In this document: in pieces, positions 4,760 through 7,996 of the stretch
How the letters are laid out: every line of letters starts with the position of its first letter
How positions within the stretch are numbered: the first letter of the stretch is position 1
IMG/VR virus record: IMGVR_UViG_3300027973_000223
Location: 1 to 23,463 of that record
Strand: one strand, 5' to 3'
Origin: a virus
DNA length: 23,463 nt
The notes under the pieces: generated by a model
Seen by the model: only the letters and a program-made list of their open reading frames with translations
What the model was told of the DNA's origin: nothing
Database searches by the model: none
Program-made: the position numbers and the translations under genes

Positions 4760-5185
4760 TTATTTAGACAAATATAAAGCATACTTATCTATTTCCTCGC
4801 AAAGTTGCTCTATTTTTTCCTTAAACCAATATTCAGTATCCATAATGTCTCTACATTTATTTATTGAGTAGAGAACTGTTGTATGGTCTTTAACACCGAT
4901 ATATGATGTAATTTCTGATAGACTTAACCTTGTGTACATTCTTAACATATAAGCTGCTGCCTGTCTTGCAAATACTGTTTTTTGTTTTCTATTATTTGCT
5001 TTTATGTCTGTACTAAATACATCTGCAACTAATTGTACAATTTTTTCAGGTTTGATAGATTTATCAGTTACGGGTAATCTAATGTCATCTAAGATAATAC
5101 CTTCTTTGATTAATAGATTTTGCAAATAACTGAAGCTATCTTTTTGCATTACATATGCAGCGTATATTTCTTCTTTGTGTGTCAT
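4760..5185 (-). CDS. Stand-alone DnaA domain IV-like DNA-binding protein
   Basis: The 141-residue protein carries the DnaA C-terminal DNA-binding domain (about 45-120): ARQAAAYMLRMYTRLSLSEI (73-92), then a SYIGVKDHTTVLYS block. DHTTVLYS (100-107) is the DnaA signature helix-turn-helix that reads DnaA boxes. Full-length DnaA is about 450 residues; the AAA+ ATPase domain is absent and there is no Walker motif. The N-terminal 40 residues are helical and unrecognised. It probably binds DNA at the phage origin, or occupies host DnaA boxes. It sits two bases after the next upstream gene and just before the replisome-organiser gene, consistent with an initiation role. It could alternatively be a transcription regulator of TrfA/Trp-repressor-like fold. 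Confidence 0.82.
   Translation of the reverse strand: MTHKEEIYAAYVMQKDSFSYLQNLLIKEGIILDDIRLPVTDKSIKPEKIVQLVADVFSTDIKANNRKQKTVFARQAAAYMLRMYTRLSLSEITSYIGVKDHTTVLYSINKCRDIMDTEYWFKEKIEQLCEEIDKYALYLSK
4769..4776 (-). promoter_or_regulatory. Candidate Bacteroidota -7 element TATATTTG
   Basis: TATATTTG on the minus strand fits the TAnnTTTG -7 consensus. It lies in the last codons of the DnaA domain IV gene, 18 bases before the ATG at 4751. A TTTG occurs 23 bases upstream, slightly wider than the usual 19-21. It could drive the replisome-organiser part of the operon. In AT-rich coding DNA such a match may arise by chance. Confidence 0.3.
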
Positions 5186-5187
5186 AT

Positions 5188-5394
5188 TTAAAATTCTAAA
5201 TCATCATTTACTATTGGTTGTGCCACATCAGGCTTTAAATAATTGTTTTCATAAATTTGAAAATCAGGTTCAGTATCCTTTTTTTTGTAAGTGTTAACCC
5301 ACATATTATACTTTTGACCTTCAATTGTAAAATTAATTACTTCTCCTTTAGGTGTTTGCTTTTTCCAAGCACCATACTTTTTTTTATCTTCCAT
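5188..5394 (-). CDS. Hypothetical small beta-rich protein (68 aa)
   Basis: The 68-residue protein looks like a small beta-barrel: YGAWKKQTPKGEVINFTI, then EGQKYNMWVNTYKKK and PDFQIYENNY. The alternation of strands with a W near the start resembles the DUF736-like or single-stranded-DNA-binding-like miniproteins common in phage early operons, but no family can be named with confidence. It begins at a TAATG overlap with the stop of the HTH gene (5394) and ends two bases before the DnaA-like gene, so it is well embedded in the replication operon. A weak nucleic-acid-binding role is the most I would suggest. Confidence 0.65.
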   Translation of the reverse strand: MEDKKKYGAWKKQTPKGEVINFTIEGQKYNMWVNTYKKKDTEPDFQIYENNYLKPDVAQPIVNDDLEF

Positions 5395-5606
5395 TACTTT
5401 TTGTTTTTGATTAATGTATATTGTGCTACAAACTTAGGCTTATTCTTAGTTCCTACATTTACCCTGTCAGTAACTATTTTATGCCCTTCATCTTTAAGAT
5501 TAAATACTAATGCTGCTAATCTTAATGTACCATACTTTCTTAATGCCACTAATGGTGTAAGCGGTTCTTTTTTTAGGTGATTAAGCACCTGTGTTTGTTG
5601 ACTCAT
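5394..5606 (-). CDS. Small winged-helix/HTH protein (HTH_39-like)
   Basis: The 70-residue protein is almost entirely one helix-turn-helix domain: QVLNHLKKEPLTPLVALRKY (7-26), then GTLRLAALVFNLKDEGHKIV and a beta wing (NVGTKNKPKFVAQYTL). The L-T-P-x-A-L-x-x-Y-G...R-L-A-A-x-[VI]-x-x-L-x-x-x-G pattern matches the small HTH proteins found in many phages (Pfam HTH_39 style). These are thought to regulate DNA rearrangement or transcription, with function mostly unproved. The recognition helix is RLAALVFNL. As the only small wHTH regulator near the control region, it is a candidate ligand for the ACGGTAWWW boxes at 7062-7180. It overlaps the upstream gene by 26 bases. Confidence 0.72.
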   Translation of the reverse strand: MSQQTQVLNHLKKEPLTPLVALRKYGTLRLAALVFNLKDEGHKIVTDRVNVGTKNKPKFVAQYTLIKNKK

Positions 5607-6761: not shown

Positions 6762-6977
6762 TTAATTAAAGTTTGCCCAAGCATCTTTTGGTAAATGATT
6801 AAATACTGATAAGTAATATCCACTTAAATGAACGAATGTACCATATCTCATATCACTTACATAATATTGACTTTCTAATTCATCTTTTAATTCTTTTGCA
6901 AGAGATGGATATTGTTCAGCAGATTCTTCAATTGCCTTTAAGATTTCAGGCTTTAATTGCTCTAGTAGGTTTTTCAT
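6762..6977 (-). CDS. Hypothetical protein, first gene of the leftward early operon (71 aa)
   Basis: This protein is not recognised. The first half is an amphipathic helix pair rich in Glu and Leu (LLEQLKPEILKAIEESAEQY, then PSLAKELKDELES); the second half is aromatic (YYVSDMRYGTFVHLSGYYLS). It lies directly behind a TATATTTG box (6997-7004) and the 284-base control region, so it should be the first protein made from this promoter. First early genes of phages often target host functions, but there is no motif to assign one here. Confidence 0.65.
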   Translation of the reverse strand: MKNLLEQLKPEILKAIEESAEQYPSLAKELKDELESQYYVSDMRYGTFVHLSGYYLSVFNHLPKDAWANFN

Positions 6978-6996: not shown

Positions 6997-7004
6997 CAAA
7001 TATA
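6997..7004 (-). promoter_or_regulatory. Candidate early promoter (-7 element TATATTTG), leftward
   Basis: TATATTTG on the minus strand fits TAnnTTTG, the Bacteroidota -7 element. It lies about 20 bases before the ATG at 6977, giving a short leader. I do not see a clear -33 TTTG at 19-21 bases upstream, so activation by a regulator is possible. It sits on the flank of the operator-like array and faces the early operon. Confidence 0.5.
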
Positions 7005-7061
7005 GGGGATATAAACATACTATCCTAATAATATATACTGAATTTCCAACAATTATTATGA

Positions 7062-7180
7062 ACGGTAAATGGGAATGATGGACGGTATTTGTTCAATATT
7101 TTGTCCGATATTTTGTCCGAACAAAAAACAGGACATACTAATATTTTTAGTATTTACCGTTTATCCTTAAATATTACCGT
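7062..7180. promoter_or_regulatory. Symmetrical array of four ACGGTAWWW boxes around TTTTGTCCGA repeats
   Basis: In the gene-free stretch 6978-7261, plus-strand boxes ACGGTAAAT (7062-7070) and ACGGTATTT (7082-7090) are 20 bp apart. Minus-strand boxes ACGGTAAAT (7152-7160) and ACGGTAATA (7172-7180) are also exactly 20 bp apart. The two pairs mirror each other about position 7121. AACGGTAAAT at 7061-7070 has its exact reverse complement at 7152-7161. At the centre is a 12-bp tandem repeat ATATTTTGTCCG (7096-7107, 7108-7119) and a TTTTGT-CCGA-ACAAAA dyad (7111-7126); GGACA at 7131-7135 inverts the TGTCC core. The 20-bp phasing places paired boxes on one DNA face. This suggests a cooperative operator controlling both divergent promoters, or a replication origin with iterons. 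Confidence 0.7.
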
Positions 7181-7192
7181 TTGTGTAATAAA

Positions 7193-7232
7193 TTTGGATA
7201 TGTTGTTTATAAGTTGTATATTGTATTATAAT
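7193..7232 (+). promoter_or_regulatory. Candidate promoter for the rightward gene
   Basis: TTTG (7193-7196) followed after 20 bases by TATATTG (7217-7223) is close to the Bacteroidota layout TTTG-N19-21-TAnnTTTG. A sigma70-type alternative overlaps it: TTGTTT (7203-7208), an 18-base spacer, and TATAAT (7227-7232). Either would give a leader of roughly 25-35 bases before the ATG at 7262. It lies just outside the last ACGGTAWWW box. Confidence 0.4.
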
Positions 7233-7261: not shown

Positions 7262-7717
7262 ATGAAAACAATCATTAGAAAATCTGTGCGTAATGAGATT
7301 ACAAAAGCAATTCCTGAACTATTAGATAGTTCGCTTTGTTGGATGAAATCAAAATACGCAAATGTAAATTTTGAGAATATAGAATATATATTTTCAAATA
7401 GTTTTAATCGTTCAAGGTATTTTAGAAATGCTAATAATGTTAAATATCAAACACCTACTATTTGTATTCACACAACGAAAGTAATAGGGGTATATGATAT
7501 TAAAACATTAAAGATTAAAAAAAGATTTATTATTGGTGATACTAAAACACAAATAATGTGTGCTTTAATTCACGAATTAACTCATCATATGCAATATGAG
7601 TTAGGATTAGCAAAAGGTGAATTAGAAACAACTAGGAATGAATTAGATTATCTTAAACAATATCATCCTAGTTATTATAACAAAATGATGGGCATTAAAA
7701 CACCACCACTAATTTAA
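7262..7717 (+). CDS. HExxH zinc metallopeptidase-like protein (151 aa), only rightward gene
   Basis: The 151-residue protein has ALIHELTHHMQYE at about 101-113, a full HExxH zinc motif (H104, E105, H108). An acidic stretch follows (GELETTRNELDYL, about 119-131) that could give the third ligand Glu. The N-terminal 60 residues are basic and helical with R/N-rich patches; the middle has beta strands (TPTICIHTTKVIGVYDI). It resembles SprT-like or ImmA/IrrE-like minigluzincins rather than secreted proteases; no signal peptide is seen. It is alone on the plus strand, driven from the control region and ended by a terminator that overlaps its stop codon. Its position opposite the early operon is where a phage lysogeny or immunity regulator usually sits, so cleavage of a repressor is a hypothesis. 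Confidence 0.7.
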   Translation: MKTIIRKSVRNEITKAIPELLDSSLCWMKSKYANVNFENIEYIFSNSFNRSRYFRNANNVKYQTPTICIHTTKVIGVYDIKTLKIKKRFIIGDTKTQIMCALIHELTHHMQYELGLAKGELETTRNELDYLKQYHPSYYNKMMGIKTPPLI

Positions 7718-7726: not shown

Positions 7727-7996
7727 TTATTTTGTACCATCCTGAAGGGGTAAATGTTTGCTATTGTCTACCTGTCTGTAGCCTAAAGCCCATAGCATTT
7801 TAGTCATTGTAATACTCTTTTCAACTATTTGTTCTTCTGTATCTTCAGGATTTGTCAAATGATATAACTCATGGATTAAAATTTCCATTTTCTTTCTACC
7901 CTTTAGTCTAGGGTCAATATATATAATACCATCACTTTCGGCAATGCCGTGTGCTTGTTCTCTGCCTAATTTTTTATATATAATTTTAATCTTCAT
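7727..7996 (-). CDS. Mini HExxH metallopeptidase-like protein (89 aa)
   Basis: The 89-residue protein has a compact fold: beta strands (MKIKIIYKKL, GIIYIDPRLKG) lead into the active helix MEILIHELYHLTNPED. The HExxH motif is H42-E43-x-x-H46, with E55 or E59 (EEQIVEKS) as possible third ligand. This is the minigluzincin layout known from small SprT-like, ImmA-like and toxin-antitoxin-linked proteins. It is the last gene of the leftward late transcript and ends at the bidirectional terminator. It converges with the unrelated-looking 151-residue HExxH gene. It overlaps the upstream hypothetical by 11 bases. Catalytic activity is likely, but its target cannot be read. Confidence 0.75.
   Translation of the reverse strand: MKIKIIYKKLGREQAHGIAESDGIIYIDPRLKGRKKMEILIHELYHLTNPEDTEEQIVEKSITMTKMLWALGYRQVDNSKHLPLQDGTK

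Follow-up and report, generated by a model that had tools for sequence, protein, structure and literature searches.

The locus raises the question of which protein, of the phage or of its host, reads four short boxes arranged as a mirror image between two divergent genes. The window, i.e. the whole stretch of DNA analysed, is an IMG/VR virus record of 23,463 bp. Direct inspection of its sequence placed ACGGTAWWW boxes on the plus strand at 7062 (ACGGTAAAT) and 7082 (ACGGTATTT) and on the minus strand at 7152-7160 (ATTTACCGT) and 7172-7180 (TATTACCGT), just where the original prediction had put them; these are the only four matches in the window, and an array like this one appeared in none of 2,000 first-order Markov genomes, which held 1.08 boxes each on average. 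The location given earlier, a divergent intergenic region, also held, with the flanking genes starting at 6977 (minus strand) and 7262 (plus strand). A dyad axis at 7121, said to be common to all elements, is right for the boxes and wrong for the TTTTGT-type dyad, centred at 7118.5 and hence offset by -2.5; the axis of the four boxes is in any case no extra evidence, because any two inverted, equally spaced pairs share one automatically. Extended to the 9-mers defined below, the boxes make up two arms, each reading outwards:

7058..7066, minus strand: promoter-proximal box ACCGTTCAT of the left arm, corresponding to the box at 7062 (from the sequence)
7078..7086, minus strand: distal box ACCGTCCAT of the left arm, corresponding to the box at 7082, 20 bp from the proximal box
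7156..7164, plus strand: distal box ACCGTTTAT of the right arm (from the sequence, the box matrix and the family of 134 arms)
7176..7184, plus strand: promoter-proximal box ACCGTTTGT of the right arm, 20 bp from the distal box

The exact four-box ACGGTA pattern had no match in viral contigs, because the boxes vary as RYGGTA, and a relaxed arm pattern did find copies. Four related contigs, from which the arm consensus was derived (RYGGTAAW-N4-AAKGATRRRYGGTAWW), keep the box positions and vary in the bases within them (ACGGTA, ATGGTA, GTGGTA, GCGGTA); in promoter orientation the arm reads ACC[GA][CT]T[CT]AT-11 bp-ACC[GA][CT]T[CT]AT. This pattern matched at least 120 times in the viral collection, against nine for the reversed pattern, and 11 times in 257 Gb of bacterial and archaeal genomes. 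The boxes have therefore passed the check on which the original prediction had staked itself, conservation in relatives: their 20-bp phase recurs in 134 distinct arms, where it is fixed by the search pattern itself, so that the evidence lies in the excess over the reversed pattern. The left proximal box ACCGTTCAT is the most frequent proximal 9-mer (53 of the 134 arms).

One to six arms were detected in every one of 36 contigs tested at length (two matches in all for the control), contigs that had been picked since they or close relatives carry the arm. Among 33 contigs picked by capsid protein, several of which had also been found through the arm, 27 matched a looser pattern (control, 0), a few of them poorly (e.g. 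the single match in G039). The arms of a genome lie at separate loci, mostly linked to promoters; about three such loci, some 11 kb apart, are often present in the more complete genomes. Single arms, ahead of varied small genes, are the majority of copies. Arms of L060, L087 and L120 contain three consecutive boxes, again in 20-bp phase. Arms were also found in phages whose structural genes are unrelated, as expected for sites of a host factor. No relative was found among annotated phages, either by DNA or by capsid protein; the capsid relatives of this uncultured group number at least 528.

Past the arm, in promoter orientation, come TAnnTTTG, which is the -7 element of Bacteroidota (PMC9723704), and then a gene start. 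Of the 134 distinct arms, 96 are followed at 35-59 bp by an exact TAnnTTTG, against an upstream background of 0.00014 per position, and this Bacteroidota sigma-A type of -7 element is also that of the leftward promoter in the window. Once promoters that were over 70% alike at equal distance had been removed, 28 non-redundant ones were left, whose -7 elements lie at 35-39, 45-47 or 55-59 bp and never between. Their spacing gave R = 0.78 at a period of 10-10.5 bp, as high as in none of 20,000 uniform sets, a test made optimistic by the relatedness that persists among the 28. Steps of one helical turn are what would be expected of an activator that needs to face the polymerase. Around the array the following elements and genes were located:

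6762..6977, minus strand: 71-aa gene that opens the leftward unit, no family match
6997..7004, minus strand: leftward promoter, -7 element TATATTTG of the TAnnTTTG type, 57 bp beyond the left arm
7193..7196, plus strand: rightward promoter, TTTG as a possible -33 element, lying 20 bp ahead of the -7 candidate
7217..7224, plus strand: rightward promoter, candidate -7 element TATATTGT, 36 bp beyond the right arm
7262..7717, plus strand: gene of the rightward unit, 151 aa, with a weak match, below the family cut-off, to DUF6782 (putative metallopeptidase)

The TTTG at 7193..7196 is kept in nearly all mirrored loci. The rightward candidate TATATTGT is of the TAnnTTGY type, motif SM5 of Flavobacterium psychrophilum (PMC9723704), and not the standard TAnnTTTG. 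Another candidate for the rightward -7, TAAATTTG at 7189, was rejected as lying only 8 bp past the boxes and overlapping the likely -33. The mirrored array is two promoter arms placed back to back at divergent promoters.

The genes behind the arms are diverse. The first genes downstream (88 in all; median 83 aa) fall into 56 families, 34 of them singletons, with a Pfam match in at most five of the 71 scanned. Often a single arm starts where a gene of 383-388 aa ends, at its stop codon; from its sequence we take this gene for that of the terminase large subunit. In the window, the rightward gene (7262-7717) and the gene at 7727-7996 are convergent and encode HExxH-type motifs (HELTH, HELYH); both products may be small zinc peptidases.

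The same arm and -7 element also occur in bacterial chromosomes. One of the 11 chromosomal matches, in a Runella metagenome-assembled genome (MAG; family Spirosomataceae in NCBI), has a -7 element at exactly 58 bp and lies ahead of padR-pspC. Box pairs were matched in 30 of 200 genomes of the Runella family, and TAnnTTTG follows at 58-59 bp in 14 of the 30 loci read. Five gene families stand behind this composite, among them padR-pspC, a MarR-like gene and genes for small exported proteins; except for PadR, PspC, DUF2807 and MarC, these gene names are our reading of the sequence. A class-wide sample of 395 genomes yielded the composite in two only (control, 0); these two belong to the Runella family and, as judged by shared flanking palindrome sequence, to the padR-pspC type. 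Capsid-protein matches in Runella-family genomes are remote only (20-25%); members of this family are the presumed hosts of these phages.

Several further features of the chromosomal copies were noted. A small exported protein (MGHPQNLFA / IGRPHNVFA) is encoded behind the arm in several Runella-family genomes (L317:2665-2916, L297-L303) and represents a second conserved host target. Between the boxes and the -7 element of host padR-pspC promoters (L306-L309, L338) lies the palindrome GTACCTTGCATYRCAAAGTAC, a likely PadR operator, and dual control of host padR-pspC by PadR and the box-binding regulator is possible. PadR itself was dropped as the binder of the boxes, since the arm precedes other genes too and the PadR-like palindrome is separate from it. 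Six of the 11 chromosomal pattern matches are a repeated element of marine Flavobacteriaceae and not an arm promoter: this intergenic repeat, ATACCATTTATCATTTGAATTTACCGTAATAAAATG, mostly followed by AAACCGTAGC...AGCTATGC (L134, L136, L137, L140, L142, L144), is box-pair-like, lacks the phage promoter context and has two copies in one genome.

A phage-encoded DNA-binding protein, with the boxes as its activating or repressing sites, is an unlikely reader, if the least unlikely of the alternatives. Candidates would be, for example, the DnaA-domain-IV-like protein (4760-5185), the sigma-like protein (2394-2876) or the HTH_39 protein (5394-5606). The DnaA-domain-IV-like protein is encoded in 29 of 36 arm-bearing contigs, the box, as TTTACCRYT, partly resembles the DnaA box TTATCCACA, and arm copies in host chromosomes are few. 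Yet we found no protein family, early proteins included, that is common to all arm-bearing phages, and the composite promoter is present in host-type chromosomes as well. The DnaA-like protein was moreover dropped as an insufficient explanation, since armless relatives retain it and several arm-bearing phages gave no match to it; inspection of the armless relatives by eye revealed no alternative box pair. As for the 160-aa protein at 2394-2876, its relatives include a phage protein that matches Sigma70 region 2 (G020, L167:14537-15061); it is conserved in 14 of 20 arm-bearing genomes and may be a phage sigma-like factor.

The boxes had been said to match no known system; in our reading they resemble the repeats bound by LytTR response regulators. 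Published LytTR operators are direct or inverse repeats of 9-11 bp with spacers of 11-13 bp and without a universal consensus (PMC4847170), e.g. ACCACTTAT-12 bp-ACCGCTTAT for BrsR and ACCACTTAT-11 bp-GCCACTTAT for the LytTR-type repeats of Treponema (PMC6193735). All 134 arms have this spacing (9-mers 20 bp apart, spacer 11 bp), and they lie, as LytTR operators do, upstream of the promoter and in helical register with it. Their most frequent distal 9-mers are ACCGCTTAT, ACCGTTCAT and ACCGTTTAT, the consensus of the LytTR family being loose. A LytTR matrix built from 42 published repeats ranked the right arm third in the window, with a score that simulated genomes can reach, so that the motif alone is no proof; none of 200 column-shuffled matrices reached the four-box score. 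A LytTR domain (PF04397) was found in none of 41 phage contigs, many of them perhaps fragments, and 13 times in the Runella MAG; no LytTR gene was found adjoining the Runella-family arm copies. Because the repeats are LytTR-like, PF04397 is missing from the phage contigs searched and the Runella MAG has 13 matches, we favour a LytTR-type regulator of the host as the most likely binder, which probably activates the phage promoters. We infer alike the binding by a LytTR protein, its encoding by the host, the activation and the signal.

The regulator might instead be a host protein outside the LytTR family, the likeness being coincidental, which we consider improbable. The composite in host chromosomes is independent of the LytTR assignment, and the LytTR consensus is loose. 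AraC-type regulators, too, bind direct repeats about two turns apart, a layout comparable to that of the arms. Against this, the 9-mers ACCGCTTAT and ACCACTTAT, the 11-bp spacer and the position upstream of a promoter agree with published LytTR operators, and the result with shuffled matrices speaks for more than coincidence.

The original prediction had also seen two classes of site nested in one mirror plan, with a core at the axis, and had proposed a looping operator. Between the arms lie:

7096..7126, no strand: core, consisting of the 12-bp tandem repeat ATATTTTGTCCG x2 and the imperfect palindrome TTTTGTCCGAACAAAA (from the sequence)
7137..7153, no strand: palindrome TACTAATATTTTTAGTA adjoining the right arm (from comparison of mirrored loci)

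The copies of ATATTTTGTCCG occupy 7096-7107 and 7108-7119, and the imperfect TTTTGTCCGAACAAAA dyad spans 7111-7126, with its centre at 7118.5; a search of the array region for RNA families found none. Fifteen mirrored loci span 118-119, 108-109, 99-100 or 64 bp (a second pair of collection scans returned the 118-119 and 99-100 classes only). The TTTTGTCCG palindrome is offset from the axis by about -2.5 to -3 in the 118-119-bp arrays and by -8 in those of 108-109 bp, and is absent from those of 99-100 and 64 bp. This TGTCCG palindrome keeps a constant 62-63 bp from the right end of the array and so shifts relative to the axis. At two mirrored loci TACTAA-TTAGTA palindromes replace the TGTCCG core, two others have no core, and core-like sequences also accompany single arms (L130, L112). 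Palindromes of the TTTTGTCCGGACA and TACTAA-N5-TTAGTA types recur, at a constant distance from the right arm, with many mirrored arms and with some single ones. The nested plan is not supported, because the core palindrome is tied to the right arm and not to the dyad axis; the core thus belongs to that arm as an accessory element.

A lysis-lysogeny switch whose looping operator would be a symmetrical complex of core and all four boxes is very unlikely. The clustering of mirrored lengths at 118-119, 108-109 and 99-100 bp, about one turn apart, is in its favour, but such phasing is equally explained by each arm being in phase with its own promoter, the majority of arms are single, and the core is neither bound to the axis nor present in every array. 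The least credible reading is a replication origin with iterons, the other alternative of the original proposal; what survives of that proposal is a regulatory site between divergent promoters. An origin would suit direct repeats spaced by about two turns in the vicinity of replication genes, with a DnaA-like gene nearby. Instead of a single cluster independent of promoters, however, each genome has one to six arms at different loci; in the majority of arms a -7 element follows in fixed steps and a gene starts nearby, and cumulative GC skew, a check advised at the outset, does not reverse at the array beyond what the plus-strand gene would cause.

Under the favoured reading, a host LytTR-type regulator, the array would consist of two upstream activating sites back to back, one each for the leftward and the rightward promoter, and each site would comprise two 9-bp direct repeats separated by an 11-bp spacer. 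Both promoters would be read by the Bacteroidota-type RNA polymerase of the host, and a host-encoded LytTR response regulator would probably bind each pair and activate from a fixed face of the DNA helix. In Runella-family hosts the same regulator would act on envelope-stress genes such as padR-pspC; in the phages, where arms stand at as many as several sites of a genome, they would drive small genes of varied kinds, probably accessory or early ones. These observations suggest that the viruses borrow a gene switch of their host, probably one of the LytTR type. A bolder version is conceivable and, in our view, rather doubtful: by convergence, unrelated freshwater Bacteroidota phages would all use a single LytTR envelope-stress regulator of the host as the switch of their hypervariable accessory genes; if true, phage gene expression would track the stress state of the host membrane.

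Should the main reading be right, the sequence signature would mark promoters of variable gene slots in a large uncultured phage group, would point to the host family of these phages, and would bring the LytTR family and the Bacteroidota onto the short list of phages that listen to a two-component system of the host; the binding partner could then be tested with few host proteins. Small genes that change fast, and are candidates for host take-over or counter-defence, are located by the same signature.

With the operators of BrsR/HdrR of Streptococcus mutans (PMC6193735) and YpdB of Escherichia coli (PMC4847170) the arms share two 9-bp direct repeats, whose sequence may be of the ACC[GA]CTTAT type, and with LytTR operators in general a spacer of 11-13 bp and a position upstream of the activated promoter. 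LytTR operators usually have a 21-bp period, whereas the arms have one of 20 bp (the 11-bp spacer, a minority form), and the promoter-proximal repeat of the arms is often farther upstream, by two turns, than the 10 bp that are usual. The operator of BtsR/YehT is a further one of the LytTR family. Unlike known LytTR operators, the arms are predicted sites, and the phages that carry them gave no match to a LytTR protein. The HAAS-PadR / PspC / Toastrack envelope-stress operon (PMC11237479) corresponds to the Runella-family host operon with the same arm and -7 spacing, and the host padR-pspC promoter differs from the phage promoters in holding the PadR-like palindrome GTACCTTGCATYRCAAAGTAC. Sites of a host response regulator in promoters of unrelated phages are known for CtrA in phages of Alphaproteobacteria; like the arms they are concentrated in promoters, and they arose in several lineages (PMC9437464). 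CtrA belongs to another regulator family and its hosts to another phylum, and its binding and regulation were established by experiment, whereas the arms are known from sequence. Cyanophage Pho boxes, according to PMC10976474 (citing Zeng and Chisholm 2012), are read by host PhoB and, like the arms, wire phage genes to a two-component system of the host; as described there, the genes concerned respond to phosphate stress, in contrast to the varied small genes behind the arms. The same source warns that predicted sites in phages are unreliable without binding tests. Our search of the open-access literature found no phage regulated through LytTR; phages under host response regulators (CtrA, PhoB) are already known, and a LytTR case in phages would be new.
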